A stretch of DNA of 64,000 nucleotides from Demequina flava (lineage in GTDB: Bacteria > Actinomycetota > Actinomycetes > Actinomycetales > Demequinaceae): positions 1,135,184 to 1,199,183 of the forward strand of contig NZ_BBRA01000001.1 of the NCBI RefSeq assembly GCF_000975035.1. The letters are read 5' to 3'. Positions within the stretch are counted from its first letter, which is position 1. Each line of letters starts with the position of its first letter. Positions 26,990-41,789 of the stretch are shown here, in pieces. The position numbers and the translations under genes are program-made. Under the pieces are notes generated by a model. The model was not told the origin of the DNA. It saw only the letters and a list, made by a program, of their open reading frames with translations, and did not search any database.

Positions 26990-26992
26990 CGG

Positions 26993-27700
26993 CTAGTCAT
27001 CCTCGTCCGCCGGGACACCGTCCCAGTACATGATGGTGGTGCGCCCCACCGTGACCACGTTGCCATCAAGCAAGGTGACCTCGTTGACGCGCTGGTCCTC
27101 CACCATCGTGCCATTGGTCGAGCCCAGGTCCGTGAGGATGGTGCCGAAGTCGGTCACTTCGAAGCGACAGTGCTGCCGGGACACGCCCGTATCGTCCACA
27201 ACGATGTCCGCTTCCTGGCCGCGGCCAATCACCGTCATGTCGCCAGTGAGGTGATAGCGCGCGCCGTCGATGTCGAGCAGCGGGTAGCGAGAGCGGTGGT
27301 CGCGCTCCGTCGCGGGGGCGACGGGTCCGCGCGTGGTGCGGCTCGTCACCGCTAGGCGCCCTGTCGCGAGCGACTCGTCCTGCGTGAACTCCACCTTCAC
27401 AGCACCCACGAAGGAATACTGCTGGCGGCTAGCGTGGTCGCGCAGCGAGTCCTCGATCTCGCGCGCCAGGGCCTCGTCGCCCCACTGCTCGATCGTGTCG
27501 TGGTCGGTTTCGGACAGCGCAATGGCGTACTCATTAGGCGCGACGGTGCGGTGACGATCCACAGCAGCGGCGCGCGCATCACATTCACGACGGACGGCGC
27601 TCGCGAGCTCCACGGGCTTAACACCCGACTTGAAGGTCCGCGCGAACGCTCCCTGCACGACGTTTTCAACGCCCTTTTCGAAGCGATCTAGGACTCCCAT
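26993..27700 (-). CDS. fhaA: FHA-domain protein FhaA with DUF3662 domain
   Basis: The N-terminal DUF3662 domain (GVLDRFEKGVENVVQGAFAR) is joined to a C-terminal FHA domain (VIGRGQEADIVVDDTGVSRQ, LGSTNGTMV). FhaA binds phosphorylated partners such as MviN-type lipid II flippase complexes in mycobacteria. 235 residues from ATG 27700. First gene of the seven-gene operon, divergent from tRNA-Leu across 48 bp. TACGAT sits 7 nt before the start and there is no Shine-Dalgarno, which suggests a leaderless mRNA. An open frame continues upstream through the tRNA and is not coding. Confidence 0.93.
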   Translation of the reverse strand: MGVLDRFEKGVENVVQGAFARTFKSGVKPVELASAVRRECDARAAAVDRHRTVAPNEYAIALSETDHDTIEQWGDEALAREIEDSLRDHASRQQYSFVGAVKVEFTQDESLATGRLAVTSRTTRGPVAPATERDHRSRYPLLDIDGARYHLTGDMTVIGRGQEADIVVDDTGVSRQHCRFEVTDFGTILTDLGSTNGTMVEDQRVNEVTLLDGNVVTVGRTTIMYWDGVPADEDD

Positions 27701-27707
27701 ACACCGA

Positions 27708-27713
27708 ATCGTA
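27708..27713 (-). promoter_or_regulatory. Probable -10 element (TACGAT) of the fhaA-pknB operon
   Basis: TACGAT reads on the minus strand 7 nt before the fhaA ATG. It lies in the 48-bp gap shared with the divergent tRNA-Leu gene, so both promoters must overlap. No good -35 was found. Confidence 0.55.
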
Positions 27714-27748
27714 TAGGGCCGCGCAAGCGTGCTAAAGTTACCCGGCAC

Positions 27749-27832
27749 GCGCGAGTGGCGGAATAGGCAGACGCGCACGGTTCAGGTCCGTGTGTCCGAA
27801 AGGACGTGGGGGTTCAACTCCCCCCTCGCGCA
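27749..27832 (+). tRNA. tRNA-Leu (anticodon CAG)
   Basis: 84-nt class II tRNA. Acceptor stem GCGCGAG pairs with CTCGCGC (27825-27831), followed by discriminator A. The anticodon stem CACGG/CCGTG encloses TTCAGGT with CAG at 27783-27785. A variable arm (TGTCCGAAAGGACG) and T arm (GGGGGTTCAACTCCCCC) are present. CCA is not encoded. A terminator follows at once. Confidence 0.96.
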
Positions 27833-27840
27833 CGTGAAAA

Positions 27841-27867
27841 AGGCCCCCAGGGATCTGGGGGCCTTTT
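27841..27867 (+). terminator. Rho-independent terminator of tRNA-Leu
   Basis: 10-bp arms AGGCCCCCAG/CTGGGGGCCT with a GGAT loop and a T4 run, preceded by A5; it could work in both directions. The remaining DNA to 28085 holds nothing recognisable apart from a short hairpin near 27968-27986. Confidence 0.88.
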
Positions 27868-28085
27868 GCTTTGCCAGGGTCCTTTGTGGGCGTTTCCGGG
27901 TGGTTTCCGGTGGCGCCCTTGTTGCCCCGTGGCGGATTGTTGATCCCCATGCACGCTACGAGTGGCCGAGCCCGACTTGCTCGGTGATCAGCGGGCCGTG
28001 GCACTTCCAGCGCGCAGTGCGCGACGCGACGGTCCGCGTCACTGCATCGCCCGACCCGCTCGCGGGCCTGCGTAGGGTGGGCGTC

Positions 28086-28646
28086 GTGAATCCCAACCCT
28101 CATGTTGTGCTCGTTGCAGGTCCGCCAGCCTCCGGAAAGTCTACGACTGGCGCTGCCCTGGCGAAGTCTCTCGGCGCGGCTCTGCTGGACCAGGACCGAC
28201 TCACGAACCCACTTATGGATGTCCTGACGGAACTGGTTGGGGCTCGCGAGTACTCGGACCCGGCTGTGGCGTCCATTGCGCGCGACGCTCGCTATGAGTG
28301 TGTCTTCAGGGCTGTCGAGGACTCTGCGCGAGCGGGTGTATCCGCTGTTGCAGTGGCGCCGTTTACGCGCGAGTGTCGAGACCCCGAGGCGTGGCGAGCG
28401 CTAGAGGCGCGGCTTGCGATGCTCAATACGCCCGTGAGGCTGGTGTGGATCGCGCTCGACCGCGAAGAAGTGGGGCGCCGGATGCGCGGTCGCGCCGCTG
28501 CCAGGGATGCAGAAAAGCTCGTGGAACTGGATGCGTATCTCGCGGGAGTTGAGCTGTCTGTGCCGGTCGGCCCGCACGTGGTGGTCGACGGCCGCACCTC
28601 CGCTGAAGAGCAGGTAGCCTCCCTGCGCACGGCGCTTGACCTGTAG
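28086..28646 (+). CDS. Small P-loop (AAA_33-type) kinase-like ATPase
   Basis: 186 residues. The Walker A motif is AGPPASGKST near the N-terminus, with LLDQDRL after the second strand and an Arg-rich lid (REEVGRRMRGRAAARD). This pattern fits the AAA_33/gluconokinase-like group that phosphorylates small molecules. The GTG at 28086 has TAGGGT 7 nt upstream, which fits a leaderless mRNA; GTG 28077 is an alternative. It is the first gene after tRNA-Leu and may or may not belong to the sugar block. The substrate is unknown. Confidence 0.75.
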   Translation: MNPNPHVVLVAGPPASGKSTTGAALAKSLGAALLDQDRLTNPLMDVLTELVGAREYSDPAVASIARDARYECVFRAVEDSARAGVSAVAVAPFTRECRDPEAWRALEARLAMLNTPVRLVWIALDREEVGRRMRGRAAARDAEKLVELDAYLAGVELSVPVGPHVVVDGRTSAEEQVASLRTALDL

Positions 28647-28692
28647 CCCTACCTGAGCCCAGGGTCCAAATATAACGAAAGCATCACAACAA

Positions 28693-28706
28693 TGACATCG
28701 GTGTCA
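28693..28706. promoter_or_regulatory. LacI-type operator O1 upstream of lacI-1
   Basis: TGACATCGGTGTCA: TGACA/TGTCA arms around a central YCGG. An identical copy lies exactly 23 bp downstream. Central CG palindromes are typical LacI-family targets. Confidence 0.75.
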
Positions 28707-28714
28707 TCTCCTGA

Positions 28715-28743
28715 TTGACATCGGTGTCATAGGCCTCCATGAT
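28715..28743 (+). promoter_or_regulatory. Promoter of lacI-1/transport operon with embedded operator O2
   Basis: TTGACA (28715-28720), a 17-bp spacer and CATGAT (28738-28743). Operator O2, TGACATCGGTGTCA at 28716-28729, covers the -35 and most of the spacer, so a bound repressor would block RNA polymerase. A weaker half-site region (TGACAACGATGACA) lies at 28761-28774. Confidence 0.7.
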
Positions 28744-28798
28744 GGGTGCCACGCAGTTGATGACAACGATGACATTTCTCGATGGAGAGGGCAGCCTG

Positions 28799-28891
28799 AT
28801 GCAACTTTGCATGGTGTGGGACGCGTCTAGCGCCCTCGCGGTCGCCCTCAGAGGTAGCGCCGGATCCTGGATGCGCGAGGTGCGCTCATGA
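28799..28891 (+). CDS. Possible 30-residue leader peptide before lacI-1
   Basis: ATG 28799, preceded by GAGAGGG, encodes 30 residues starting MQLCMVWDAS and ends in a TGA that overlaps the lacI-1 ATG (ATGA). The arrangement suggests translational coupling. There is no homology to draw on, so it may be a chance frame. Confidence 0.3.
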   Translation: MQLCMVWDASSALAVALRGSAGSWMREVRS

Positions 28892-29931
28892 CTGCCATGA
28901 AGGACGCCACGCTACGAGACGTCGCCGCACATGCCGGGGTATCCATCAAGACCGCATCGCGCGTTCTCAACGATGACCCCCGCGTCGCAGACGGAACTCG
29001 CGCATCGGTCACCGCCTCGATGGTTGCGCTTGCGTATCAGCCAGATCCCACCGCTCGGTCACTGCGTGCAGGGCGGGATCGCACAGTCGGCGTCGTGGTC
29101 GAGAGCATCGGAGACGTGTTCGTCGCCGCATTGGTGGCTCAGATTGAACGCCTTCTTGCGGAGGCTGGCTACCAAGTTCTCGTCGCGTCGAGCTATCGGG
29201 AACTGGAGCGCGAGCGTTCGATCGTCTCGAACTTCGTTCAGCGTCGATGCGCCGGCCTCATCGTCATGCCCAGTTCGCTTGACGCCTTGCAAGGTATGCC
29301 GTTGCGAGGCCTGCCGGTCGTATTCGTCGACCGCGAAGGTAGTGCCCCGGGCAGCCAGTCCGTGATCGTGAATGACCGCGATCTCGCTCGTGTGGCGACC
29401 TCGCACCTGATTGCGCAGGGGCATCGCCGCATTGCGCTCATGAGCGACGCACTCGTTGTCGATACCACCCGTCACCGCCACGAGGGTTACCTCGACGCCT
29501 TGCGTGACGCAGGCATCGAATCCGATCCAGAGCTGATTCGGGATGACTGCATCGACGAGCCACGCGTCTTCTCCGTCCTTGACGAGGTTTTTGCGCTCGA
29601 CGAGCCTCCGACTGCGATCTTCTCGGCGAACACCCGAGTGTCGCTCGGCATAGTGCCCGGCCTTCATGTCGCTGGGCGGACGGACATGGCCCTGGTGGCC
29701 TTTGGAGATTTCCCGATGGCGGCGAGCCTCAAGCCGGCTGTGACCGTCATCGACCACTCGCCCGCCCGAATCGGCGAAGTGGCCGCGCGCACTCTACTCG
29801 CGCGCCTTATTGAACCTTCTGACCAGCTACAGGGTGGGCCCGTCATCACGGTCCCCGCCCACTTGATCGAGCGTGGCTCAGGGGAGATCCCCGCTGAGCC
29901 ACGCTCTCGATCCCCTCGGGTTCGCCGCTAA
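28888..29931 (+). CDS. LacI-family transcriptional regulator 1
   Basis: The N-terminal helix-turn-helix DATLRDVAAHAGVSIKTASRVLN is followed by a periplasmic-binding-protein-like effector domain. 347 residues. It lies directly behind two TGACATCGGTGTCA operators and ahead of a sugar ABC importer, so it probably autoregulates and controls the transport operon. It is a paralogue of the LacI protein at 35329-36339; both end with a similar FGDFPxAxxLxPxV segment. The last 20 codons form a long hairpin (29869-29906). ATG 28888 or ATG 28897 could be the start. The effector is likely a sugar or sugar phosphate of the pathway. Confidence 0.9.
   Translation: MTAMKDATLRDVAAHAGVSIKTASRVLNDDPRVADGTRASVTASMVALAYQPDPTARSLRAGRDRTVGVVVESIGDVFVAALVAQIERLLAEAGYQVLVASSYRELERERSIVSNFVQRRCAGLIVMPSSLDALQGMPLRGLPVVFVDREGSAPGSQSVIVNDRDLARVATSHLIAQGHRRIALMSDALVVDTTRHRHEGYLDALRDAGIESDPELIRDDCIDEPRVFSVLDEVFALDEPPTAIFSANTRVSLGIVPGLHVAGRTDMALVAFGDFPMAASLKPAVTVIDHSPARIGEVAARTLLARLIEPSDQLQGGPVITVPAHLIERGSGEIPAEPRSRSPRVRR
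29869..29906 (+). terminator. Hairpin inside the 3' end of lacI-1
   Basis: 12-bp arms GAGCGTGGCTCA/TGAGCCACGCTC enclose an inner GGGG-AGAT-CCCC stem. It lies within the last codons of lacI-1, so it may reduce read-through into, or protect the 3' end before, the ABC importer genes. No T-run. Confidence 0.55.
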
Positions 29932-29974
29932 CGCGGTGATCCGGTGCAACACGGCAATCGACAAGGGAGTGGAA

Positions 29975-30016
29975 ATGCCAGCACAAGCGTCAAACGCAAA
30001 GGAGGTGCGCACATGA
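29975..30016 (+). CDS. Possible 13-residue leader peptide before the ABC ATPase gene
   Basis: ATG 29975, preceded by GGGAG, encodes MPAQASNAKEVRT. Its TGA overlaps the ATPase ATG by 4 bp, and its codons contain the ATPase Shine-Dalgarno. It may couple translation or be a remnant; too short to prove. Confidence 0.3.
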   Translation: MPAQASNAKEVRT

Positions 30017-30780
30017 GCACCCCACTGTACGAAGCCCGCGGAATCTCGCGGTCCTTCGGATCCGTTCAGGCACTGCAAGGCGCTGACTTTGATGTCCGCC
30101 CGGGCGAAGTGTCCGCACTCATTGGTGACAACGGTGCCGGCAAGTCGACCTTGGTCCGCATCCTGTCAGGAGCCGACAAGCCCGATGCTGGCGAGATCCT
30201 GTTCAAAGGTGAGCCCATCTCTCTTGAGACCCCCACAGATGCCCGCGTGAGGGGCATCGAAACCGTCTTCCAGGACCTCGCCTTGGCGAACCACCTCGAC
30301 CCGATCCAGAACATGTATCTGGGGCGCGAACTTCCGCGCTCAGGGGTACTCGGCAAGTTGGGTTTCATGGATCGCGCTCAGATGCGCGAAGTGGGCCAGG
30401 CTGCGTTCGCGGACCTTGGTGCGACTGTGCGTGACTTTGAGAGCCCAGTGGGCGGGATGTCGGGCGGGCAGAGGCAAGCGATTGCAGTCGCCCGAGCCGC
30501 TGCGTGGGCAAATGAGGTCATCTTCTTTGACGAGCCCACTGCAGCTCTTGGTGTTGTGCAGACCAAGGGAGTGCTCGACCTGATCCGCCGCATCCGTGAC
30601 AAGGGAATCGGCGTGGTGCTCATCAGTCACTCCATGCCGCACGTGCTCGACGTGGCAGACCGCGTTCACGTCCTCCGTCATGGACGGCGCGCCACGGTGA
30701 TGAATACCGCGGACACGAACGTCGAAGAACTCGTCGGTGCCATGACCGGTGCCCTTGATGGCAAGGAGGCCGCAGCATGA
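30013..30780 (+). CDS. CUT2-type sugar ABC transporter ATP-binding protein (single domain)
   Basis: 255 residues with one nucleotide-binding domain: Walker A GDNGAGKST, Q-loop FQDLAL, signature MSGGQRQ, Walker B VIFFDEPTA, H-loop ISHSM. Single-domain ATPases of this kind (FrcA-like) power CUT2 monosaccharide importers. The ATG at 30013 follows AAAGGAGG. It overlaps the permease start by 4 bp and forms an operon with the permease and binding protein. Confidence 0.92.
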   Translation: MSTPLYEARGISRSFGSVQALQGADFDVRPGEVSALIGDNGAGKSTLVRILSGADKPDAGEILFKGEPISLETPTDARVRGIETVFQDLALANHLDPIQNMYLGRELPRSGVLGKLGFMDRAQMREVGQAAFADLGATVRDFESPVGGMSGGQRQAIAVARAAAWANEVIFFDEPTAALGVVQTKGVLDLIRRIRDKGIGVVLISHSMPHVLDVADRVHVLRHGRRATVMNTADTNVEELVGAMTGALDGKEAAA

Positions 30781-31877
30781 CCGCGACGACAACAACGACG
30801 GCTCAGCAGAGTCCAGGCAACCAACAGCCCGGTCGCGTCCACACCATGACTGCGCGGGTTCAGCACATGGCGCGAGCCCAAGCCATGCAGATCGTCTTGG
30901 TCTGGCTGGGAATCGTGGCGGTCTTCACCGCTTTGGCGCCAGGAGCCTTCTTCGACGTCGCCAACTTCCGCAATATCGCGATCTCGGTGTCAATTCTCGC
31001 GATCCTCGGTGTCGGAACAACGTTCATTATCGTCACGGGCGGCATCGACCTCTCCATGGGCTCCGTCCTTGTGTTCAGCGGTGTGGTCTCGTCCCTCGTC
31101 ATGCAGTCCATTGGCGACGGGCAGGGCTGGTTTGTGTCAACAATCGGCATCTGTGTCGCGCTGTTCGCCGGCCTCGCGTGGGGTCTACTCAACGGCGTCC
31201 TGGTCGCGAAGGCGAAAGTCCCGCCAATGATCGTCACACTCGGAACATTCGTGGCGGCGTTGGGACTCGCGCAGGTGTTGACCGGCGGCCTCGACCTCCG
31301 CGCTGCGCCTGAGGTTCTCGTTGACAGCGTCGGATTTGGCGACGTGCTCGGTGTTCCAAGCCTCGTCATTATCTCCGCCGCGGTCGTCATTATCGGAATC
31401 ATCCTGCTGAACCGCACTCGCTTCGGTCTTCACACCTCGGCCGTGGGTTCCAATGCGGAAGCTTGCCGGCGAGTCGGCATCAACGTCGATCGCCAACTCA
31501 TCAAGGTTTACGCCTTCGCGGGCCTGTTGGCGGGTCTCGCGGGCCTCCTCAACTTGGCCTTCTTCCGCTCTACGACGATCGCAGGCCACAGCCTCACCAA
31601 CCTCGACGTCATCGCCGGAGTGGTGATTGGCGGCACGAGCCTCTTTGGCGGCGTTGGCTCGGTCTTCGGAACGGTGATCGGTTTGCTGATTCCCGCCACG
31701 CTTCGCAACGGCTTCGTCATTCTCGGCGTCGAGCCGTACTGGCAGCAGGTAGTCGTGGGCGCGTTCCTCATCGGAGCCGTGTACGTCGACCAGGCGCGTC
31801 GCGCCGCAGCGGCTCGTAACACCACACGAAAAACCTTGTTCGGCCAGCTCTTTAGACGTAATTCAGAACACAAATGA
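30777..31877 (+). CDS. CUT2-type sugar ABC transporter permease (RbsC/FrcC-like)
   Basis: 366 residues with about ten hydrophobic helices and the BPD_transp_2 motifs GIDLSMGSVLVFSGV and GVVIGGTSLFGGVGSVFGTVIG. N-terminal 35 residues are Thr/Gln-rich and cytosolic. Transports a monosaccharide or polyol delivered by the lipoprotein encoded next. Starts in ATGA overlap with the ATPase gene. Confidence 0.93.
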   Translation: MTATTTTTAQQSPGNQQPGRVHTMTARVQHMARAQAMQIVLVWLGIVAVFTALAPGAFFDVANFRNIAISVSILAILGVGTTFIIVTGGIDLSMGSVLVFSGVVSSLVMQSIGDGQGWFVSTIGICVALFAGLAWGLLNGVLVAKAKVPPMIVTLGTFVAALGLAQVLTGGLDLRAAPEVLVDSVGFGDVLGVPSLVIISAAVVIIGIILLNRTRFGLHTSAVGSNAEACRRVGINVDRQLIKVYAFAGLLAGLAGLLNLAFFRSTTIAGHSLTNLDVIAGVVIGGTSLFGGVGSVFGTVIGLLIPATLRNGFVILGVEPYWQQVVVGAFLIGAVYVDQARRAAAARNTTRKTLFGQLFRRNSEHK

Positions 31878-31891
31878 AAGGAAACACCACG

Positions 31892-32908
31892 ATGCGAAAG
31901 ACGCATGTTGTAAAGGCTGCCTCGGTAGCCACCCTTGCCCTCGCACTGGCTGCGTGCTCATCGTCGAGCGACGCTACTGACGAGGCATCGGCAACCGCAG
32001 GTGGAAGCAACGATGCTTCGTCCTCGGAATCCGTCAGTGTCTCGTTCATCCAGGGAGTTATCGGCGATAACTTCTACATCTCGATGGAGTGTGGAGTGCT
32101 CGCTGCGGCCGAGGACCTCGGCGGCATTGACGTGAGCGTTCAGGGTCCACAGAAGTGGGACCCTGCGCTTCAGCAGCCGGTGCTCGCATCGGTGACCGCG
32201 GCAGACCCGGACGCGATCTTGATTGCTCCGAATGACATTTCTGCCCTGCAGCGCCCCCTCGAGGAGGCTGCTGAAGGAAGCGAGATCGTGCTTGTGGACA
32301 CGACGGTCGAAGACCCGTCGTTTGCCGTGAGCGAGATCGCCTCCGACAACGTCGGTGGCGGTGCCGCTGCTTTCGATGCGATCAAGGAGATGGTGCCGGA
32401 AGGCGGCAAGGTTCTCGTGATCGACAACCAGCCAGGAATCTCGACGTCCGACGCTCGCGTCGAGGGGTTCGAGGGTGCTGTTGAGGCGGACGCCGACTTC
32501 GAGTACATCGGGGTTGAGTATGCCCAGAACCAGCCCGCGAAGGCCGCACAGATCGTGACCTCCACCCTGCAGGCCCACCCGGACCTCAAGGCGATCTTTG
32601 CCACCAACATCTACAGCGCTGAGGGTGCCGCGACTGGCATCGAGCAAGCTGGCGTTGCCGGAGACGTGCAGGTTGTCGGATTCGACGCGGGCCCGGCGCA
32701 GGTAGAGGCTCTCGAGGACGGCACGGTCCAGGCCATCATTGCGCAGCAGCCCTTTGACATTGGGTACCAGGGCGTCGAGCAGGCGCTCGCAGCTCTGAAC
32801 GGTGAAGCAACTGAGTCCAAGATTCAGACCGGCTTCACCATCGTCACCAAGGAAAGCCTCGACACTGAGGAAGGTCAGGCGGCTCTGTACGCCTCGACCT
32901 GCAAGTAG
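31892..32908 (+). CDS. Sugar-binding lipoprotein of the CUT2 importer
   Basis: The signal peptide ends in the lipobox LALAAC, so the mature protein is lipid-anchored at Cys22. A Ser/Ala-rich linker precedes a periplasmic-binding (RbsB/FrcB-like) domain with FIQGVIGDNFY, DPDAILIAPND and VQVVGFDAGP. ATG 31892 is preferred (AAAGGA upstream); an in-frame ATG at 31874 overlaps the permease stop and is possible. Ligand class is monosaccharides; the exact sugar is unknown. A strong hairpin after the gene probably sets its higher expression relative to the kinase downstream. Confidence 0.92.
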   Translation: MRKTHVVKAASVATLALALAACSSSSDATDEASATAGGSNDASSSESVSVSFIQGVIGDNFYISMECGVLAAAEDLGGIDVSVQGPQKWDPALQQPVLASVTAADPDAILIAPNDISALQRPLEEAAEGSEIVLVDTTVEDPSFAVSEIASDNVGGGAAAFDAIKEMVPEGGKVLVIDNQPGISTSDARVEGFEGAVEADADFEYIGVEYAQNQPAKAAQIVTSTLQAHPDLKAIFATNIYSAEGAATGIEQAGVAGDVQVVGFDAGPAQVEALEDGTVQAIIAQQPFDIGYQGVEQALAALNGEATESKIQTGFTIVTKESLDTEEGQAALYASTCK

Positions 32909-32920
32909 TACCCCCTCCCT

Positions 32921-32962
32921 GTGGTGGGTGCGCGCTCCCGTAGCCGAGCGCGTACCCACCAC
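32921..32962 (+). terminator. Strong hairpin between binding-protein and kinase genes
   Basis: 17-bp arms GTGGTGGGTGCGCGCTC/GAGCGCGTACCCACCAC (one G-T pair) with an 8-nt loop, 12 bp after the stop. No T-run; a partial terminator or mRNA-stabilising stem. Confidence 0.75.
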
Positions 32963-33028
32963 TCCCCCTCCTTTACTCGCCCCACGCGGCGGCACTGTGT
33001 GCTGCCCGAATGACCCGACGGAGCTAAT

Positions 33029-34405
33029 GTGACCACCCCACTTCTCATGGGAATCGACCTCGGCAGCACCGGCGTCAAGGTGCTCGTGAGCGACGCCGAC
33101 GGCGCCGAGCTGGTCGTGGAACAGGCCGCAACGCCGTGGATTCACGGTGCAGCTGGGGCAGCGGAACTTGATGGCCGGACACTCCTCGACACAGTGATTG
33201 AACTGTGTCGCAGCGCGTGTGCTCGCCTTGCGCCTCAGGTGGAGCCTGATCCGGTTCGCATCTCTGCCATCGGTGTGACCGGGATGGGTGAAGCCGGGTT
33301 CGTCGTCGGCCCCGATGGGGTGCCCCGTAGCCGCGCGCTTGCGTGGTTCGACCCGCGCGGCGAGAGCCAACTGAGCGCCATGCCCGCGTCTCTTGCCCGT
33401 GAGTTTGCCGGGAGAACTGGATTGCCCCTGGGCGTCCAGGTGTCCGTCATGAAGGTGCTCTACCTGCGTGACGAAGGGCTTGACCTTGAGGGATGCCACT
33501 GGGCGAATCTTCCGGAGTGGATTGTTGCGCAGTTGGGCGGGCGCGTCGCTGCTGAACGGTCCCTCGCTTCGCGCACGGGTTTCATTGACCAGGACTCCGG
33601 CGCACCGTGGGGGCCGATGCTTGCTCACCTGGGCGTGAAGCAGGACTTTGTGCCGACCTTGATGACGGCCGGGTCCTCGTGGGGAACCGTCGCCGGTGAG
33701 GGGTTGCCCGCCGCGATCGCTGGCGCGCACCTGACTGTGGCAGGCCATGACCACCTTGTGGCCGCTCGCGCAGGAGGCGAGATGCCCGCTGACCGTTATC
33801 ACGTCTCCATGGGTACTGCCGAGGTGATCCTGCAGGTGCTGGATGCCCCGTTGAGCGCAGGCGCCCGGGACCGCCTTGCGCAGCACTTCATTAATCACGT
33901 GAACCACGTGGTCCCCGGCCAATATGTGCTCGTCGCTGGGGTCAAGACAGGGCTGTTGATGCGGCGAGCGTTTGATCTCTTTGGTGTCACCGACTCCGAT
34001 CAGCGCACCGCTCTTGACCACTCCGCGCGACGGCTTCCCCCGGGCGGGACACTTCCGGACGGCGCGATTGATGTCCACGGAGCGCGCAACGACGACGGCA
34101 TGCTTTCGCTGGTCATCCGTGCAGATGGCGCCACCCCACCGGAGGTATTTGCACGGATTCTTGAGCACGGCAACGACGAGATTCGACTGCTACTGCAGGC
34201 GATGGCGCGTGAGGCTCCCGTGCCGTCCTCGACGCTCATGTCCGGAGGTTGGACGCGCATGGACAGTGTCGTGGATGCGCGCTCTCGGGTACTTCCGAGG
34301 GTCGAAGTCTCTCACCGCTCTCAAGACACCGCGCTGGGCGCGGCGCTCGCGTCAGCAGCCCTGGCGGGGACCGAACCCACCCCACATCTGACCCACCACC
34401 AATAG
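33029..34405 (+). CDS. FGGY-family carbohydrate kinase
   Basis: 458 residues. The N-terminal ATPase motif is MGIDLGSTGVKVLVSDADG. The middle region carries TVAGHDHLVAARAGGE, and the C-terminal half has LMSGGWTRMDSVVDARS. FGGY kinases phosphorylate ketopentoses, ketohexoses (including D-tagatose) or polyols. The GTG at 33029 follows GGAG. It lies between the importer and the LacD-type aldolase, so it most likely phosphorylates the imported sugar or its ketose. Specificity cannot be read from the sequence. Confidence 0.88.
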   Translation: MTTPLLMGIDLGSTGVKVLVSDADGAELVVEQAATPWIHGAAGAAELDGRTLLDTVIELCRSACARLAPQVEPDPVRISAIGVTGMGEAGFVVGPDGVPRSRALAWFDPRGESQLSAMPASLAREFAGRTGLPLGVQVSVMKVLYLRDEGLDLEGCHWANLPEWIVAQLGGRVAAERSLASRTGFIDQDSGAPWGPMLAHLGVKQDFVPTLMTAGSSWGTVAGEGLPAAIAGAHLTVAGHDHLVAARAGGEMPADRYHVSMGTAEVILQVLDAPLSAGARDRLAQHFINHVNHVVPGQYVLVAGVKTGLLMRRAFDLFGVTDSDQRTALDHSARRLPPGGTLPDGAIDVHGARNDDGMLSLVIRADGATPPEVFARILEHGNDEIRLLLQAMAREAPVPSSTLMSGGWTRMDSVVDARSRVLPRVEVSHRSQDTALGAALASAALAGTEPTPHLTHHQ

Positions 34406-34427
34406 AACACAAGAGAAGAGGATCGCT

Positions 34428-35327
34428 GTGTCTACAACACTCACCACCGCGCCATCGCTCACCACCCAGGAACGCCGGGGAATGAGCGCCATTTGTACAC
34501 CCGCAGGTCGCATGCTGATCGTTGCGGCTGATCAACGTAACGGCATGAAGGCCGTCATGACCGATGGCGACGGTTCGCCTGTCAGCCAAAGTCAGCTCGT
34601 CGAAGCGAAGTCTGATCTGGTTCGCTATCTCGGCAACCACGCAGCTGCCATTCTGCTCGACCCTGAGGTCGCGTTGCCTCACGTCGTTGATGAGGGCACC
34701 TTGTCGCGCGACACGGCGCTCGTCGTCGGCATGGATGCGTCGGGCTTTGAGGACGTCAACGGCATTCGCTACACGCGCTACGTCGACGGTGTCACGCCGG
34801 AACGGGTCCGCGAGCTCGGAGGGGATGTTGCCAAGATGCTCTGGTACTTGCGCCCAGATCGTCAGGACGAGTCGGACCGCGCCGTGCGCGAAATCCGGGA
34901 ACTGACCGAAGCGTGCAGTCAGGCTGGCCTGCTCCTCATCGTGGAGATCCTTACCTACCAACTGGAGGGTGAGACTGACGAAGAATACGCAGCGGCATTC
35001 CCCGGGTTGGTCGCTGACAGTGCGAAGATTGCGGTCGCCAATGGCGCGCGCGTCCTGAAGCTCCAGTACCCAGGATCTGCCGAAGCGAGTTCGGCCGTCA
35101 CCGAGGCTGCTGCGGGAGTGCCTTGGGCCGTTCTCTCCGCCGGTGTCGATCACGAGACCTTCATGAAGCAGGTCCGCACTGCGGTCGCGAACGGCGCGTC
35201 CGGCGCCATGGCCGGGCGCAGCCTGTGGAAGGACAGCCTGTCCGTTTCGCACGATGTGCGTGAGGACAAGCTCACGAATCTCGCGCAGCCGCGCTTGCGG
35301 GAACTTGCTGAGGCCGTCGAAGGCTAA
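34428..35327 (+). CDS. LacD/YihT-family class I aldolase
   Basis: 299 residues of TIM-barrel aldolase: LIVAADQRNGMKAVM near the N-terminus, AAAILLDPEVALPHV, AKMLWYLRPD, VEILTYQ, the likely Schiff-base Lys in RVLKLQYPG, and VPWAVLSAGVD plus GASGAMAGRSLWKD. By memory it resembles tagatose-1,6-bisphosphate aldolase (LacD) more closely than the sulfofructose-phosphate aldolase YihT. It would cleave a ketohexose phosphate or bisphosphate to triose units. The GTG at 34428 follows GAGG. Its stop is 1 bp from the convergent lacI-2 stop. Confidence 0.85.
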   Translation: MSTTLTTAPSLTTQERRGMSAICTPAGRMLIVAADQRNGMKAVMTDGDGSPVSQSQLVEAKSDLVRYLGNHAAAILLDPEVALPHVVDEGTLSRDTALVVGMDASGFEDVNGIRYTRYVDGVTPERVRELGGDVAKMLWYLRPDRQDESDRAVREIRELTEACSQAGLLLIVEILTYQLEGETDEEYAAAFPGLVADSAKIAVANGARVLKLQYPGSAEASSAVTEAAAGVPWAVLSAGVDHETFMKQVRTAVANGASGAMAGRSLWKDSLSVSHDVREDKLTNLAQPRLRELAEAVEG

Positions 35328-35328
35328 G

Positions 35329-36339
35329 TCAGTCCTGGGCCCGGTCGTGATCTGCGGCCGGGCCCTTTCGCGCACTGGAGTCGCGTGGGACGAGCGTTGT
35401 TCCCACGGTCACACGCGAGTCATACGCCCCATCGGGATCGTCAATGCGCGCGAGCAGACGCCGCGCTGCCTCTGTCCCGATCTGGGTCGGGTGTTGGTCG
35501 AGTGCGGCGACGCTCGGGGTCAGTGCGTCAGCAAGCGGGAAGTCACCGAATGAGATCACCGCGATAGGAATGCTCGCAAGGTGTGGGCCCAATGCCATGG
35601 CTGCGCGAGCGTTCGAGCAGATCACTGCGGATGCCGGCGGGGATGCTGCGAGCATCGTTTCTGCCATGGTGGGCGCGAGTGCGGGGTCGTCTCCATGGAA
35701 CTTGATCAGCTCTGGGTCTTCGGCGAGTCCCGCAGCCCCGAGTCCTTGGCGATAGCCGCGCAGTCGCTCTTGAGTTGTCGTGATGGCTGCGTCGTTCCCA
35801 ATGAAGCCGATGTGCGTGTGGCCGTTGGCTGCGAGGTGTGCCACTGCCTTTTCAGTCGCCTGAACGTCGTCGGAGAGCACAACGTCCGCATCGAGCCCCT
35901 CTGGAGGCCGATCAACAAACACGATGGGAAGTTGTGCCGTCCACGGGGCCAGATATGAGTGGTCGTGTGACGATGGCGCAATAACAAGGCCGCTGAGACG
36001 ACGGTTGAGGAGCGCCTCAACGCGGTCTTGCTCGTCGCTCGGGTCTGCGACGGCCGCAACGACGGTCATGAGATCGGCGCCGGCGACCGTCGCGTCGATT
36101 GCCTGCACCAGGCTCGCGAAGAAGTGATCGGTGAGAGACGGAACTACCACTCCTACCAGGGGAGAGGTGCCTTGGCGAAAGGTCGTGGCGAGGGCGTTGG
36201 GCAGGTAGCCCAGCTCCTTCATGGCCGCCTCAACGCGTTCCCGCGTCGCCGGCGCAACGTTCGGATCGGAGTTGTGAACGCGGGACACCGTCTTAAGGGA
36301 AACGCCCGCTGCCAGCGCGACGTCTCTCATGCTTGTCAC
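35329..36339 (-). CDS. LacI-family transcriptional regulator 2
   Basis: 336 residues with the helix-turn-helix MRDVALAAGVSLKTVSRVH and a PBP-like effector domain. Paralogue of the regulator at 28888. It lies behind the SDR gene on the same strand (70-bp gap) and convergent to the aldolase gene. The recognition helix differs slightly from regulator 1 (SLKTVSRV against SIKTASRV), so both may bind similar sites. Likely acts on the operator at 37214. The GTG start at 36339 has AGGAGG 11 nt upstream; ATG 36330 is an alternative. The 70-bp gap holds a small hairpin (GGCTAG/CTAGCC, 36379-36393). Confidence 0.9.
   Translation of the reverse strand: MTSMRDVALAAGVSLKTVSRVHNSDPNVAPATRERVEAAMKELGYLPNALATTFRQGTSPLVGVVVPSLTDHFFASLVQAIDATVAGADLMTVVAAVADPSDEQDRVEALLNRRLSGLVIAPSSHDHSYLAPWTAQLPIVFVDRPPEGLDADVVLSDDVQATEKAVAHLAANGHTHIGFIGNDAAITTTQERLRGYRQGLGAAGLAEDPELIKFHGDDPALAPTMAETMLAASPPASAVICSNARAAMALGPHLASIPIAVISFGDFPLADALTPSVAALDQHPTQIGTEAARRLLARIDDPDGAYDSRVTVGTTLVPRDSSARKGPAADHDRAQD
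35337..35368 (+). terminator. Terminator for the aldolase operon, inside the lacI-2 3' end
   Basis: 8-bp arms GGGCCCGG/CCGGGCCC followed by TTT, 10 bp past the aldolase stop. It overlaps the last codons of the convergent lacI-2. Confidence 0.6.
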
Positions 36340-36409
36340 GGCGGCGGCCCCCTCCTGTTACTCCGGCTGTGATTCAGAGGCTAGTGCCTAGCCCTCCGTT
36401 GGGCGCTCC

Positions 36410-37144
36410 CTACACGCAGGTGTAGCCACCATCGATCGGCAAGTGGGCTCCCGTGATCATGCTCGCTCCGTCACTCAGCAGGAACGCAATGGGTGCGGCG
36501 ATCTCGTCCTCGGTCGCCCACCGCCCAAGTGGCATGCGCGCGAGCGCGGGCCCTTCGATCTCCGGACGGCCCCAGTAGAACGCTGACATCTCTGTCATCA
36601 CGACTGTGGGGTGGACCGAGTTCACGCGAATTCCGTGCGGACCGAGCTCAAGAGCGCTGACCCGAGTGATGTTGTCGAGGGCGGCCTTCGACGAGCCGTA
36701 CGACACGTGATTGCGCAGAGCCACCAGCGAGGCCTGGCTCGAGACGTTGACGATCGAGCCGCCATTGGCAGCCTCGATCATCCGTCGCGCGGCGTGTTTG
36801 ATCACGAGCAACGCGCCACGCGCATTGACAGCCATGACTTTGTCGAAGACGTCGATATCAGTCTCGGTGGGCGAGGCAATCTCACCGCCGAAGCCTCCAC
36901 AATTCACGACACCCCACAACTCGAGGCCGGAGAGCGCATTGGCGATCTCCTCTTCGGACGTCAGATCAAACGTGACGGTGCTGCAGCCAGTCTCTTCGGC
37001 GATCTGAGTGAGGCTGTCGCTGGAGCGGCCGCTTGCGATCACATGGGCATTCGCCGCCGTGAGGTGACGAACGATGGCGCCGCCAATTCCGCCGGCCGCA
37101 CCGGTCACGAGAATGGGGCGGCCGTCGAGGTCGAGGTGAGTCAT
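36410..37144 (-). CDS. L-xylulose reductase-like short-chain dehydrogenase
   Basis: 244 residues. Rossmann motif VTGAAGGIGGAIV, catalytic Ser in NVSSQAS and YGSSK. The segments LGPHGIRVNSVHPTVVMT, PLGRWA, FLLSDGASMITG and the ending GGYTCV match the dicarbonyl/L-xylulose reductase group, which interconverts ketoses and polyols with NADP(H). ATG 37144 has AAGGAG upstream; the open frame before it is not used. It is divergent from the frcK-like gene and shares the palindromic operator at 37214-37227. The sugar alcohol it acts on is unknown. Confidence 0.85.
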   Translation of the reverse strand: MTHLDLDGRPILVTGAAGGIGGAIVRHLTAANAHVIASGRSSDSLTQIAEETGCSTVTFDLTSEEEIANALSGLELWGVVNCGGFGGEIASPTETDIDVFDKVMAVNARGALLVIKHAARRMIEAANGGSIVNVSSQASLVALRNHVSYGSSKAALDNITRVSALELGPHGIRVNSVHPTVVMTEMSAFYWGRPEIEGPALARMPLGRWATEDEIAAPIAFLLSDGASMITGAHLPIDGGYTCV

Positions 37145-37212
37145 GAGTGCTCCTTCGGTCTTGGGGACGGACAGCGGCGTCGGCATCCCGATGGCGCTCA
37201 CGATAGCCCAAA

Positions 37213-37242
37213 TTGACACCGGTGTCATCCAGTCGCTATCTT
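37213..37242. promoter_or_regulatory. LacI-type operator on overlapping divergent promoters
   Basis: TGACACCGGTGTCA (37214-37227) is a perfect palindrome. On the plus strand it begins inside TTGACA (37213-37218), with TATCTT 18 bp on. On the minus strand ATGACA is followed, 17 bp on, by TATCGT. One bound repressor could therefore shut off both the SDR and kinase operons. It matches the 28693 and 28716 sites at 13 of 14 bases. Confidence 0.75.
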
Positions 37243-37284
37243 CGAGCCAGGCACCCATACGCGTGTGCCGGAAGGGTGCTCAGC

Positions 37285-37941
37285 GTGGAACATCTATCGC
37301 CGTCGCTACCAGTGATGGATCTTGCACAAGCGTGCTCGCGCGCAGTGAGCTTGGCGAACTCCGGTGAGCGCGTCATCGTCGGCATTGTTGGGCCGCCGGG
37401 AGCGGGCAAGTCCACCGTTACTGCCTCTCTGATGGCTTCCATTGCGGATGCCGTGGCCGTGCCCATGGACGGGTTTCACCTATCCAACGAAGTCCTTACG
37501 GACCTGGGAAGGCGTGAGCGTAAGGGGGCGCCGGATACCTTCGACGTAGCGGGATATGTCGCCTTACTGAACCGCCTTCGCGGGGACGCTGGCACTATCT
37601 ACGCCCCCCGGTTTGACCGCAGTCTCGAGGAATCTATCGGAAGCGCGATCCCCGTGCCGCCGGAGTGCACCCTCGTGATTACGGAGGGTAACTACCTGCT
37701 CGCGGACGACCACGGATGGAGTGAAGTCCGGACCCTCCTCGATGAGGTGTGGTACCTGGATGTTCCGCGCGAGGTGCTCGTTTCGCGACTCGTCGCTCGC
37801 CGTATGAGCGATGGTCACCCCGAAGGCGAGGCACGCACGTGGGTCAAGGACGTCGACGTTCCCAACATGGCCCGTGTTGAGGCAACGGCCGCCCGCGCAG
37901 ACCGTGTACTGACCACTCCAGATCTTGAAGGAGAACGATGA
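37285..37941 (+). CDS. FrcK-like sugar kinase (PRK/uridine-kinase-like fold)
   Basis: 218 residues with Walker A GIVGPPGAGKST, VPMDGFHLSN, a KGAPDTFD segment, APRFDRSLEE and VITEGNYLL. This pattern belongs to the nucleoside/pantothenate-kinase-like family that includes FrcK of rhizobial fructose ABC operons. It probably phosphorylates a ketose such as fructose. The GTG at 37285 has AAGGG upstream; ATG 37315 is an alternative. Its stop overlaps the dehydrogenase start (ATGA). First gene of a three-gene operon under the 37214 operator. Confidence 0.82.
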   Translation: MEHLSPSLPVMDLAQACSRAVSLANSGERVIVGIVGPPGAGKSTVTASLMASIADAVAVPMDGFHLSNEVLTDLGRRERKGAPDTFDVAGYVALLNRLRGDAGTIYAPRFDRSLEESIGSAIPVPPECTLVITEGNYLLADDHGWSEVRTLLDEVWYLDVPREVLVSRLVARRMSDGHPEGEARTWVKDVDVPNMARVEATAARADRVLTTPDLEGER

Positions 37942-39428
37942 CTGACCGTTTGAATCGCGCGGTTGCGAGCGCGCGACACGAACTTCTTCCGGGGCCGGAC
38001 TACGACCCGGCAGATGTGGTGACCGGTATCGCGCACATTGGTGTCGGTGGCTTTCATCGTGCACACCAGGCCATGTATGTCGACCGCATGCTGGCGGAGG
38101 ATCCCACGTGGGGCATTGTGGGAATCGGTCTGCGCCCAGAGGACCGCTCGACTCTTGATGAACTTGCCGCGCAGGACGGCACGTACTCCCTGACCATTGT
38201 TGACCCGGCACAGCGCGAAACCACGCGGATTATCGGGAGCATTGTCGGGACTCGTCATCGAGACCGCGAAGGGGCAGCGCTCCTTGTCAGCACCCTCGCG
38301 GACCCGGCGATTCGCGTCGTCACGCTGACCATCACGGAGGGTGCCTACGGGATCGACCCAGACTCGGGAGAATACGTGCCCCGCGATGAAGCGGCGGTGG
38401 CTGACATGGCGGGGAGCGAGTCACCGCGCAGCGCGATGGGACTCATCGTCGATGCCTTGGCGGCAAGGCACAGGCAAGGACACTCGCCGTTCGCCGTGGT
38501 GTCGTGCGACAACATTCCTCACAACGGCGCGGTGTCTAAGGCTGCCGTGCTGGGGATGGCGCGGGTCCGAGTCCCCGAGATCGTGTCGTGGATCAGCGCT
38601 GAGGTGTCGTTCCCCTCCTCGATGGTGGACCGCATCACGCCTGCGCCAACTCCGGCGGTGCGCGAAGCAGTGGCAGATGCTTTCGGCATTGAGGACGCGT
38701 GTGCGGTCCGTTCCGAGTCCTTCGTTCAGTGGGTGCTCGAGGACGCGTTCCCTCACGGCCGTCCACCCCTTGGGTCAGCGGGCGTGATGATGGTCGAGGA
38801 TGTCGTCCCCTATGAGCTGATGAAGCTGCGGCTACTAAATGCCTCGCACCAAGTCATGAGTTACCCGGCGCTTCTTGCGGGAATTGAGTGGGTGCACGAT
38901 GCCTGCAGCGAACCGCGGGTGCGCTCGCTGATGGAGCAGTGGATGATCGCGGCGACCGGGACACTTCCATCTGTTCCGGGGGTTGACCTGGACCAGTACC
39001 GCGAGGATCTCCTCGAGCGTTTCTCTTCTCCGGCGGTCAAGGACACCTTGGCTCGCCAGGTTGCCTATTCCTCCGATCGAATCGCGACGTTTGTGCGGCC
39101 CGCTTTGGACGAGATGGCAGTCGCGGACCAACAGCGAGTGGGAGCCTTGGTGCTGGCGCTGTGGGGGCACTGGGTAAGGGCGCAACTTTCCGATGCGGAC
39201 GATCGCTGGAGTGATCCCCGCCGTGACGAACTCCAAGCTGCCATCGTTCGCGAACAGTCCGATGCGGCCGCGCTCCTCGACGTGTTTGACGTCGTCGGGG
39301 AAGCGGGACGGAACCCGGAGGTGCGTCGGGTCTATTGCCAGATTCGAGCAGACCTTGATCGCATCCCAGCGCTCGAAGTTATTGACCAGGCGCTCGCGGC
39401 GACGCCAGCCTCGGCGGCGCCGCAGTGA
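37938..39428 (+). CDS. Long-chain mannitol dehydrogenase-family polyol dehydrogenase
   Basis: 496 residues. N-terminal NAD-binding domain with IGVGGFHRAHQAMYVDRML and GIGLRP, and the C-terminal catalytic K-x4-N-x2-H motif in MKLRLLNASHQVMSYPALL. The family oxidises mannitol, arabitol or sorbitol to ketoses, or reduces fructuronate/tagaturonate. With a FrcK-like kinase upstream and an aldose-ketose isomerase downstream, polyol to ketohexose is the most likely reaction. Overlaps both neighbours by 4 bp. Confidence 0.9.
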   Translation: MTDRLNRAVASARHELLPGPDYDPADVVTGIAHIGVGGFHRAHQAMYVDRMLAEDPTWGIVGIGLRPEDRSTLDELAAQDGTYSLTIVDPAQRETTRIIGSIVGTRHRDREGAALLVSTLADPAIRVVTLTITEGAYGIDPDSGEYVPRDEAAVADMAGSESPRSAMGLIVDALAARHRQGHSPFAVVSCDNIPHNGAVSKAAVLGMARVRVPEIVSWISAEVSFPSSMVDRITPAPTPAVREAVADAFGIEDACAVRSESFVQWVLEDAFPHGRPPLGSAGVMMVEDVVPYELMKLRLLNASHQVMSYPALLAGIEWVHDACSEPRVRSLMEQWMIAATGTLPSVPGVDLDQYREDLLERFSSPAVKDTLARQVAYSSDRIATFVRPALDEMAVADQQRVGALVLALWGHWVRAQLSDADDRWSDPRRDELQAAIVREQSDAAALLDVFDVVGEAGRNPEVRRVYCQIRADLDRIPALEVIDQALAATPASAAPQ

Positions 39429-40690
39429 GCGATCAGGACCACGCACCTGTGGTGACCCCATGGCCTGATAGTGCGTGGTGGCTTAGGCGTCAAGACGAAC
39501 TGCTGTCGTTCGGGCGGAATTTCCCGATTGAGGTCGGCGCGGGCTATCTCGACGAACGCGGTGTTCCCATGCCGACTGAACCGCCTGGCACGACGGAACT
39601 GTATGTGACGTGCCGGATGACCTACGTGTACTCGTTGGCGCATCTGGCTGGCGATCAGCATGCATTGCCGCTTGTCGCGCATGGGTTGGCGTCTCTGACA
39701 GGTTCGCTCTACGACCACGAGTTTGGTGGCTGGCACGCAAAGGTGAGCCCTCAAGGACCCGTCATTTCGACGAAGGAAGCGTACGGACACGCCTTCGTGC
39801 TGCTCGCGACCGCATCTGCCTGCGCCACGGGCGTCCCCGAGGCCCGTCCGCTGTTGGATCAAGCCATCGCGGTGTTTGAACAGCACTTTTGGGACCACGA
39901 AAGTGGGATGGTCGTCGAGTCCTGGGACCGGACGTGGTCCGAGTGCGAGAACTACCGCGGAGTCAACGCGAACATGCATACGACGGAAGCGTTTTTTGCC
40001 GTCGCGCTTGCCACAGGGGATGACGTGTGGCGGCAACGCGCGCTCGGAATCCTTCGCAACGTCATCGCGTGGGCCTATGAGTTCAACGGCAGATTGCCCG
40101 AGCACTTCACTCCCCAATGGGAGCCCCAGCTCGACTACAACGAGGATTCACCGGCGCACCCATTTAGGCCGTACGGCGCGACAGTCGGCCACTGGTTCGA
40201 GTGGTCCCGTCTCGCGGTGCAGGCGTACACCAGCGAACTTCTTGGAGGTCGTGGCGCGGAGTCGCAGTGGCTCCTCGACGGAGCGCAGTATCTCTACGAT
40301 GCTGCGGTCCGGGACGGCTGGGCCGTTGATGGTGCGCCGGGGTTCGTGTACACGGTTGACTTTGGAGGTCGCCCAGTCGTGCGACAGCGAATGCACTGGG
40401 TTGCTGCCGAGGCCGTCGGTGCAGCCGCGGCGCTACGTATCGCCACCGACGACCCCCGTTTCGCCTCAGACGAGACCACCTGGTGGGGCTACATCGATGA
40501 GTACATGATCGACGGCTCCGGCTCGTGGATTCATGAACTCGACGCCAGGAACGTCCCCGCGGGAACGGTGTGGCCGGGCAAGCCCGACCTCTATCACGCA
40601 GTCCAAGCCACGATGGTTCCCCGGCTTCCGCTGTGGCCACCGCTCGCCTTCGCCCTGCGCGACAGCGCCCCGCCTCAACCCCCGAACTGA
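39425..40690 (+). CDS. AGE-family aldose-ketose isomerase (YihS/mannose isomerase-like)
   Basis: 421 residues of (alpha/alpha)6 barrel. Motifs recalled from YihS are present in order: LSFGRNFPIEVGAGYL, ESWDRTW, YRGVNANMHTTEAF with a catalytic-region His, FRPYGATVGHWFEWSRL, and PGKPDLYHAVQATMVPRLPL. Members interconvert mannose/fructose, lyxose/xylulose or talose/tagatose. YihS, as recalled, has KQDIYH where this protein has KPDLYH; the latter form is associated with mannose isomerases, so a sulfosugar is less likely. The GTG start overlaps the dehydrogenase stop. The 3' end overlaps the convergent YchJ gene by 16 bp. Confidence 0.87.
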   Translation: MSDQDHAPVVTPWPDSAWWLRRQDELLSFGRNFPIEVGAGYLDERGVPMPTEPPGTTELYVTCRMTYVYSLAHLAGDQHALPLVAHGLASLTGSLYDHEFGGWHAKVSPQGPVISTKEAYGHAFVLLATASACATGVPEARPLLDQAIAVFEQHFWDHESGMVVESWDRTWSECENYRGVNANMHTTEAFFAVALATGDDVWRQRALGILRNVIAWAYEFNGRLPEHFTPQWEPQLDYNEDSPAHPFRPYGATVGHWFEWSRLAVQAYTSELLGGRGAESQWLLDGAQYLYDAAVRDGWAVDGAPGFVYTVDFGGRPVVRQRMHWVAAEAVGAAAALRIATDDPRFASDETTWWGYIDEYMIDGSGSWIHELDARNVPAGTVWPGKPDLYHAVQATMVPRLPLWPPLAFALRDSAPPQPPN

Positions 40691-41073
40691 CTCCCCTCGA
40701 GGTAGACCCACTCGCCGTCCACCCGCACAAAGGTGCTGGTCTCGTGCAGGCTCGCGGGGTTCCCGGCCCCATCCTCATAGTGAGCCGAGAATGTCACGAC
40801 GCCTTCAGCATCGGCCGGACCGCCGTCCTCCGTTGAGGTCACGTCCAGCCCCCGCCACTGCGGAGCGGACAGGTCGCCAAGCTTTTCCGGCGCCGGGCGA
40901 GTATCCGGGTGCCACGTGCGCAGCACATAGGCCGGGTCGCGGCGCACATGCGCGGTGTAGCGCGAGCGCATGAGTTGCTCGGCGGTGTCGGGGAACCGTT
41001 CGCCGCGCAGAAAGGGACGGCAACACTCAGCAAACGAGGCCCCTGAACCACAGGGGCACGGCAACGAACTCAC
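40675..41073 (-). CDS. YchJ-family SEC-C motif protein
   Basis: 132 residues. The N-terminal SEC-C zinc motif CPCGSGASFAECC is followed by a compact YchJ domain (RSRYTAHVRRDPAYVLRTWH, SAHYED, HETSTFVR). The function is unknown; the SEC-C motif binds zinc and can contact ribosomes or SecB in other proteins. The GTG at 41073 overlaps the stop of the upstream gene by 4 bp, so the two are co-transcribed. It is convergent with the isomerase gene. Confidence 0.88.
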   Translation of the reverse strand: MSSLPCPCGSGASFAECCRPFLRGERFPDTAEQLMRSRYTAHVRRDPAYVLRTWHPDTRPAPEKLGDLSAPQWRGLDVTSTEDGGPADAEGVVTFSAHYEDGAGNPASLHETSTFVRVDGEWVYLEGSQFGG

Positions 41074-41708: not shown

Positions 41709-41789
41709 TGATCAAGGCTACGTCCCACAGCCCCCTGCGCGCGCGCCTGACCGGGCGGCAGTTGCGTGCCGCCCGGCCAGGTGAGGTGG

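Follow-up and report, generated by a model that had tools for sequence, protein, structure and literature searches.

A mobile sugar cassette behind tRNA-Leu in Demequina flava, possibly for ketohexose degradation through a divergent FGGY kinase, an AAA_33 kinase and a class I aldolase

A stretch of 64,000 nucleotides of Demequina flava (NCBI RefSeq assembly GCF_000975035.1, contig NZ_BBRA01000001.1, positions 1,135,184 to 1,199,183; hereafter the window) contains, behind a tRNA-Leu gene, a block of sugar and polyol genes (Table 1). We propose, at a probability of roughly 45%, that this block is a mobile, LacI-controlled cassette which imports and degrades ketohexoses, its main substrate probably being D-tagatose or a stereoisomer close to it. 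The block has a common operator before both of its transcription units, and its central genes are linked in other bacteria, occur in one and the same subset of Demequina genomes, and are distributed in the genus in the patchy manner of a movable element.

Twelve proteins are encoded in the block. The eleven genes named in the original prediction, which was made from the sequence alone, are all present in the order it gave behind tRNA-Leu(CAG); an AAA_33 P-loop kinase gene, lying between the tRNA gene and the first LacI gene, had been overlooked. The starts of the AAA_33, ATPase, SDR (short-chain dehydrogenase/reductase) and FrcK genes are manual readings of the sequence. An RbsB-type binding protein, a CUT2 permease and an ATPase together identify a CUT2 importer of the ATP-binding cassette (ABC) type, all below the cut-offs of single-sugar models; the best NCBIfam matches of the ATPase span only the first half of the YtfR, AraG and RbsA models. 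In the FGGY kinase, Pfam FGGY_N scored over its cut-off and FGGY_C was not found; a structural model (predicted local distance difference test 90.7) matches FGGY-family structures over its whole length at 16-22% identity, which predicts the two-domain FGGY fold. The aldolase exceeds the Pfam DeoC/LacD cut-off, and scores 61 bits against the lacD model (cut-off 432) and 161 bits against PRK12858 (cut-off 184). The isomerase is matched best by the D-mannose isomerase model, below its cut-off of 600 bits.

Both transcription units lie behind one putative operator type. The pattern TGACAnCGnTGTCA matches exactly at the three operators of Table 1, two ahead of the LacI-ABC-FGGY-aldolase unit and one in the gap separating the SDR and FrcK units, and nowhere else in the window; the site between the divergent units is overlapped by promoter-like sequences on both strands. 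A further match with one mismatch lies at 36584, inside the SDR gene, and eight matches with two mismatches are scattered in the block and outside it, so that with up to two mismatches 13 were found and 3.7 expected. A promoter consensus scan of 27700-41000 gave six sites, with 1.5 expected. In 86 loci fetched around the aldolase, much of each of which is filled by block genes, 31 exact operators were found in 16 loci, and all of them immediately precede block genes; in L002, L063 and L078 the site had seemed to fall inside SDR or FrcK as a result of a falsely extended N-terminus of the query, and the true starts read downstream. Operators also precede FGGY units that stand apart from SDR and FrcK (L039, L042, L060, L067 and L069) and an AAA_33-aldolase unit (L071). 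Regulators of the LacI family have similar operators throughout, so the sites suggest a common type of control, presumably repression, rather than which of the two regulators binds.

Linkage was surveyed in 80 loci, the best of 152 confirmed aldolase relatives. The FGGY gene is present in 66 of them, always at most 400 bp upstream of the aldolase gene, and in seven of the 66 (L010, L015, L016, L017, L064, L067 and L069) the two genes occupy one stop-free frame, from which an internal start may in some cases also yield free aldolase. AAA_33 was found in 61 loci, the polyol dehydrogenase in 46, the SDR in 43 and the importer in 43-46; FrcK was found in 27 and the isomerase in 11, making the latter an accessory. 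A more sensitive genome-wide search of 24 actinobacterial genomes, chosen from loci with and without a tblastn match, found AAA_33 in all 24, in single copy in 23; by coordinates only, with contig numbers not matched to contig names, it lies inside the fetched aldolase locus in 21, and in the remaining three a FrcK match with the same contig number lies 1.6-9.4 kb away. Among 44 Demequina genomes, 41 of them of high quality, the aldolase is present in five (E <= 1e-60; 5/41 of high quality), and FGGY and AAA_33 occur in the identical five. FrcK-type kinases occur in 41 of the 44, for which reason FrcK was rejected as a marker and is not specific to the pathway. The shared operator, the identical presence of aldolase, FGGY and AAA_33 and the one-frame FGGY-aldolase genes leave the idea of one shared pathway, already put forward in the original prediction, well supported. 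As a separate observation, in Mycetocola and Plantibacter a rhamnulokinase-like FGGY protein, a class II aldolase-like protein and SDRs are encoded beside FGGY-aldolase (L069:3521-7361, with the same clusters in L073).

We infer the sugar, the phosphorylated positions and the order of the two kinases as follows. The importer would bring in a ketohexose, to which the SDR and the polyol dehydrogenase would also oxidise hexitols and the isomerase would convert an aldose of the mannose or talose type; the FGGY kinase would then form the ketohexose 6-phosphate, the AAA_33 kinase would phosphorylate C1 as well, and cleavage of the resulting bisphosphate by the class I aldolase would yield glyceraldehyde 3-phosphate and dihydroxyacetone phosphate. 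Fructose arising from the dehydrogenase and the isomerase is probably the substrate of FrcK.

The likely substrate is suggested by the binding protein, whose nearest solved relative both by sequence and by fold (fold ranks 1-3) is 5dkv from Agrobacterium vitis, with a ligand that we take to be D-tagatose. At the aligned places presumed to lie near the ligand, a role known from ribose-binding protein, the window protein has FY, VDT, STSDAR and FDA and 5dkv has FY, VDT, STTDQR and FDA; ribose-binding protein has FF, LDR, SAARER and FDG. The binding proteins of the L082 and L084 clusters share 86% and 84% identity with 5dkv. Through the rhizobial clusters related to 5dkv, the earlier suggestion of tagatose-type intermediates is plausible. 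A title in the reference list of PMC3755991 refers to an apparent loss of stereospecificity in a class I tagatose-bisphosphate aldolase; such a loss would suit a funnel for several ketohexoses.

The roles of the two kinases are suggested by relatives in which the first kinase differs. Of 24 listed alphaproteobacterial plasmid records with the aldolase, five were opened, from Agrobacterium, Rhizobium and Aureimonas; in all five the aldolase is followed by a ROK protein of 477-487 aa, a CUT2-type importer is present in four, and in most of these plasmids a 5dkv relative is encoded next to the aldolase. The three ROK proteins scanned with Pfam each match both ROK and AAA_33, and the AAA_33 match exceeds its cut-off in one. 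The rhizobial AAA_33 domain and actinobacterial AAA_33 are 25% identical (hhalign 1.3e-15). In Sodalis the neighbours of the aldolase are a phosphotransferase system (PTS), a PfkA-like kinase and an unfused AAA_33. The rhizobial fusions together with Sodalis imply that AAA_33 goes with the aldolase and that the other kinase changes. Tentatively, and at odds that we would put short of even, AAA_33 may be an unrecognised ketohexose-phosphate 1-kinase (or a triokinase) and the constant partner of a separate family of class I aldolases, with FGGY, ROK, FrcK and PTS freely taking each other's place as the first kinase in different phyla. The usual site of action of ROK kinases is C6, and rarely C1, which would leave C1 to AAA_33 and favours FGGY at C6 with AAA_33 at C1; FGGY at C6 is also favoured by the first two fold matches of the FGGY model, gluconate and xylulose kinases (17% identity), with glycerol kinases close behind. 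Beside the aldolase unit of two of the rhizobial clusters (L083:5200-7452 and L138:4327-5832) lie an annotated pyridoxine 5'-phosphate synthase gene and a HAD-family gene.

Several findings weigh against the proposed ketohexose cassette. Identity between the window binding protein and 5dkv is no more than about 38%; no exact operator was found in 70 of the 86 loci; and the A. rubi stretch (L083) shows no CUT2 importer. By tblastn, 15 of 68 long loci showed no AAA_33. The likeness between the AAA_33 proteins is at profile level only, and FrcK, another P-loop kinase, gives 2.1e-6. Sodalis has one kinase more than the scheme needs. FGGY is missing from 14 of the 80 loci; twelve of these genomes were searched (ten Arthrobacter/Pseudarthrobacter, one Frondihabitans and one Glaciihabitans), and 11 had no FGGY relative at 1e-30, so that the first kinase there must be another, while Glaciihabitans had one relative at 34% identity. 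All ten Arthrobacter/Pseudarthrobacter loci without FGGY carry FrcK, AAA_33 and the aldolase.

The main rival, which we rate as rather unlikely, is a fructolysis-like route, in which FGGY would make a ketohexose 1-phosphate, the aldolase would release dihydroxyacetone phosphate and glyceraldehyde, and AAA_33 would be a glyceraldehyde kinase. FGGY rhamnulo- and fuculokinases act at C1, and FGGY and aldolase abut or share a frame, as the enzymes of consecutive steps would; the ROK-AAA_33 fusion, in contrast, unites two kinases, the first of a family that as noted rarely acts at C1. The two kinds of joined gene pull in opposite directions, ROK-AAA_33 favouring the bisphosphate route of the ketohexose cassette and FGGY-aldolase favouring the fructolysis-like one. 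A passage in PMC12890257, in which YihT cleaves a 1-phosphate, also sides with the latter.

Less probable is that the block holds two unrelated routes, one leading from mannitol or mannose through fructose to FrcK and the other taking an ABC-imported ketose through FGGY, AAA_33 and the aldolase. The spread of FrcK through nearly all the Demequina genomes, against five for the triad, would fit such a division, as would the counts for FGGY and FrcK in the 80 loci (66 and 27); the same operator on both units argues against it. We consider ketopentose use improbable: here FGGY would form a ketopentose 1-phosphate, the aldolase would yield dihydroxyacetone phosphate and glycolaldehyde, and the polyols would be arabitol and xylitol. 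The best solved relatives of the SDR are named L-xylulose reductase and the best NCBIfam model of the dehydrogenase is D-arabinitol 4-dehydrogenase (298 bits, cut-off 600), but the aldolase family and the link to 5dkv point to hexoses, and no glycolaldehyde enzyme is among the families of the block. Sulfoquinovose degradation by the sulfoglycolytic Embden-Meyerhof-Parnas (sulfo-EMP) pathway, brought to mind by the YihS-like isomerase and YihT-like aldolase, was rejected as highly improbable, since neither a PfkB kinase nor a sulfolactaldehyde enzyme nor a sulfonate exporter is among the families of the block, the aldolase of an Arthrobacter plasmid cluster that has such partners (L086; PfkB, aldolase, SSADH, TauE) is 30% identical to that of the window, and Gln362 and Gln379 of YihS, which we take to be its sulfonate-binding glutamines, align with His and Pro in the block isomerase.

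Relative to the Demequina genomes G006 and G038, the block is one replaced segment with sharp limits. Window positions 26500-27879 and 40694-41722 align by blastn to G006 (L121), whose FhaA is 90% identical to that of the window and in which the intervening 2.0 kb contains a PHO4-family transporter; G038 has the same short arrangement. The limits first given for the block, 27833-40690, are nearly these break points. In G016 and G003 the block lies behind the same tRNA-Leu, in G021 it is in the same interval and preceded by about 15 kb of other DNA, and in G002 the block and the FhaA site are on different contigs. tRNA-Leu(CAG) was found in 12 of the stretches from 16 relatives, that is, in 12 of the 13 that include FhaA; in the G002 stretch (L130), which includes FhaA, ARAGORN detected no tRNA-Leu. 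Tests of integration directed by the tRNA led to its rejection, as no second copy of at least 12 nt of the tRNA 3' end is present in the window, and family searches found no integrase among the 12 block proteins.

Two diverged types of the block exist, at odds with the kinship of core genes. FhaA, FhaB, PP2C and RodA of G002 are 85, 82, 78 and 74% identical to those of G000 and 76, 75, 75 and 74% to those of G016 (against G003, 77, 75 and 79% for the first three, PP2C being incomplete), whereas FGGY, aldolase and LacI regulator 2 of G002 are 58, 72 and 52% identical to those of G000 and 78, 88 and 74% to those of G016. The importer genes diverge less (81, 78 and 74% against G000; 85, 84 and 76% against G016). 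The block aldolase and its D. sediminicola counterpart share 91% identity. In a tree of FhaA and FhaB (33 of the 44 genomes) the carriers are scattered, with four changes of which at least three are forced by well supported branches; shuffled labels gave a mean of 4.8 changes and were as low as the observed value in 85 of 500 cases, so the scatter says only that the carriers are not one clade. In an aldolase tree of the 80 loci and the window, the five Demequina sequences join (94/92, not starred), and the tree otherwise broadly follows families. From the presence of the aldolase in five of 44 genomes, at more than a single location and as two diverged versions, we conclude that the block moves, and we read the movement as having taken place within the genus or among near relatives rather than as a recent distant jump. 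The acquisition suspected in the original prediction accords with these findings: the block is not at the same place in all relatives, most Demequina genomes are without the aldolase, a relative has the short site, and the 9-mer described below is scarce.

That 9-mer, left unspelled when its scarcity was first reported, is GCATCGGCC, an over-represented word with 29 copies in the window of which one is in the block, where 5.8 would be expected by length. In the 12 block genes the third codon position has a GC fraction of 0.67-0.78, compared with 0.76-0.86 in the seven flanking genes measured. Four other Demequina blocks contain 3, 1, 1 and 0 copies per 12.8 kb each, and their flanks 2, 3, 2 and 6 in about 8 kb each; D. 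sediminicola shows no depletion (3 in the 12.8-kb block, 2 in 8.1 kb of flank). The genome holds 635 and 626 copies on its two strands (1261 in 2.55 Mb), versus 33 and 40 (73 in total) of the reversed word; examples in the window lie at 1533, 1763 and 2907. Other Demequina stretches contain 2-15 copies per 20 kb (control 0-3), and no enrichment was seen in 1.47 Mb of other loci (65 against 48). The abundance resembles that of a DNA uptake sequence, and a ComEC-family protein is encoded in the genome.

Table 1. Positions in the window of the genes and control sites of the block and of its tRNA landmark
Feature	Position	Strand	Basis or remark
tRNA-Leu (CAG)	27749..27833	+	ARAGORN; left landmark of the variable site
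Block (replaced segment relative to Demequina G006)	27880..40693	.	blastn
AAA_33 P-loop kinase, 186 aa, GTG start	28086..28646	+	Pfam AAA_33 2e-15
Operator TGACATCGGTGTCA	28693..28706	.	exact match
Promoter-like TTGACA-17-CATGAT, overlaps second operator	28715..28743	+	consensus scan
Operator TGACATCGGTGTCA	28716..28729	.	exact match
Operator-like site, one mismatch, first promoter region	28761..28774	.	pattern match
LacI-family regulator 1	28888..29931	+	family searches
Single-domain CUT2-type ABC ATPase	30013..30780	+	NCBIfam; ATG with AGGAGG
CUT2 permease	30777..31877	+	family search
Sugar-binding protein	31874..32908	+	best solved relative 5dkv, 1e-50
Divergent FGGY carbohydrate kinase	33029..34405	+	FGGY_N 7e-19
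Class I LacD/YihT-type aldolase, PRK12858-related, Lys in LKLQYP	34428..35327	+	DeoC/LacD 2e-24
LacI-family regulator 2	35329..36339	-	family search
SDR, L-xylulose-reductase-like	36410..37144	-	best solved relative 4egf, 1e-46
Operator TGACACCGGTGTCA, between divergent SDR and FrcK units	37214..37227	.	exact match
FrcK/uridine-kinase-type P-loop kinase	37285..37941	+	NF006743 270 bits, cut-off 227; 3c8u 'fructokinase'
Long-chain polyol (mannitol/arabinitol-type) dehydrogenase	37938..39428	+	family searches
AGE-family aldose-ketose isomerase, D-mannose-isomerase-like	39425..40690	+	NF051846 429 bits; YihS 7ag4

The interval from tRNA-Leu to a YchJ-like gene (27749-41094) is variable among the window and the Demequina stretches L121-L136: it holds the block described here, ABC cassettes accompanied by a LacI-like gene, or no more than the PHO4 transporter. 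A LacI-like match lies among ABC-type genes of this interval in L125, L126, L127 and L133, and scans of proteins encoded in L125 and L133 identified SBP_bac binding proteins with their permeases; in L125:7924-9999 a LacI regulator and a DUF6807 domain are encoded in a single open frame. The tRNA-Leu site may be a place in Demequina where sugar cassettes are exchanged.

If AAA_33 has the role of a 1-kinase or triokinase suggested above, the ketohexose route would be modular, standing in for the PfkB/PfkA step and open to several rare sugars. The proposed cassette, if real, would assign roles to a divergent FGGY subfamily and to the orphan kinases found with this aldolase in actinobacteria, in rhizobia and in Sodalis, would show how rare ketohexoses and hexitols are used by these bacteria, and would provide enzymes for rare-sugar work. 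A limited literature search of open-licence PMC papers (tagatose with FGGY, kinase or ABC) found no description of this gene set.

Among known systems, the D-altritol/galactitol pathway of Agrobacterium shares the logic of leading a hexitol to tagatose, and unlike the block uses a PfkB kinase and a PF08013 epimerase. The FrcBCA/FrcK fructose importer locus of Sinorhizobium likewise combines a CUT2 importer with a FrcK-type kinase, and to our knowledge includes no aldolase or FGGY. The sulfo-EMP pathway (YihS, YihV, YihT) resembles the block in its sequence of AGE-family isomerase, kinase and class I aldolase; the block, however, has FGGY and AAA_33 in place of PfkB, and no sulfonate genes were found in it. 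With the tagatose-6-phosphate pathway (LacABCD) the block shares a class I aldolase, possibly of the LacD type and predicted to give two trioses, but the LacAB isomerase and the PfkB kinase LacC are not among the families of the 12 block proteins, which include FGGY and AAA_33 instead, and the score of the aldolase is a long way short of the LacD cut-off. The 5dkv-related clusters of rhizobia (Agrobacterium vitis Avis_5339) differ in a first kinase of the ROK family fused to AAA_33, in a SorC-like regulator and in the dehydrogenase/isomerase set, not seen as a unit there; they are alike in the AAA_33 domain, in the CUT2-type importer of four of the five loci opened, and in an aldolase 42-46% identical to that of the block.

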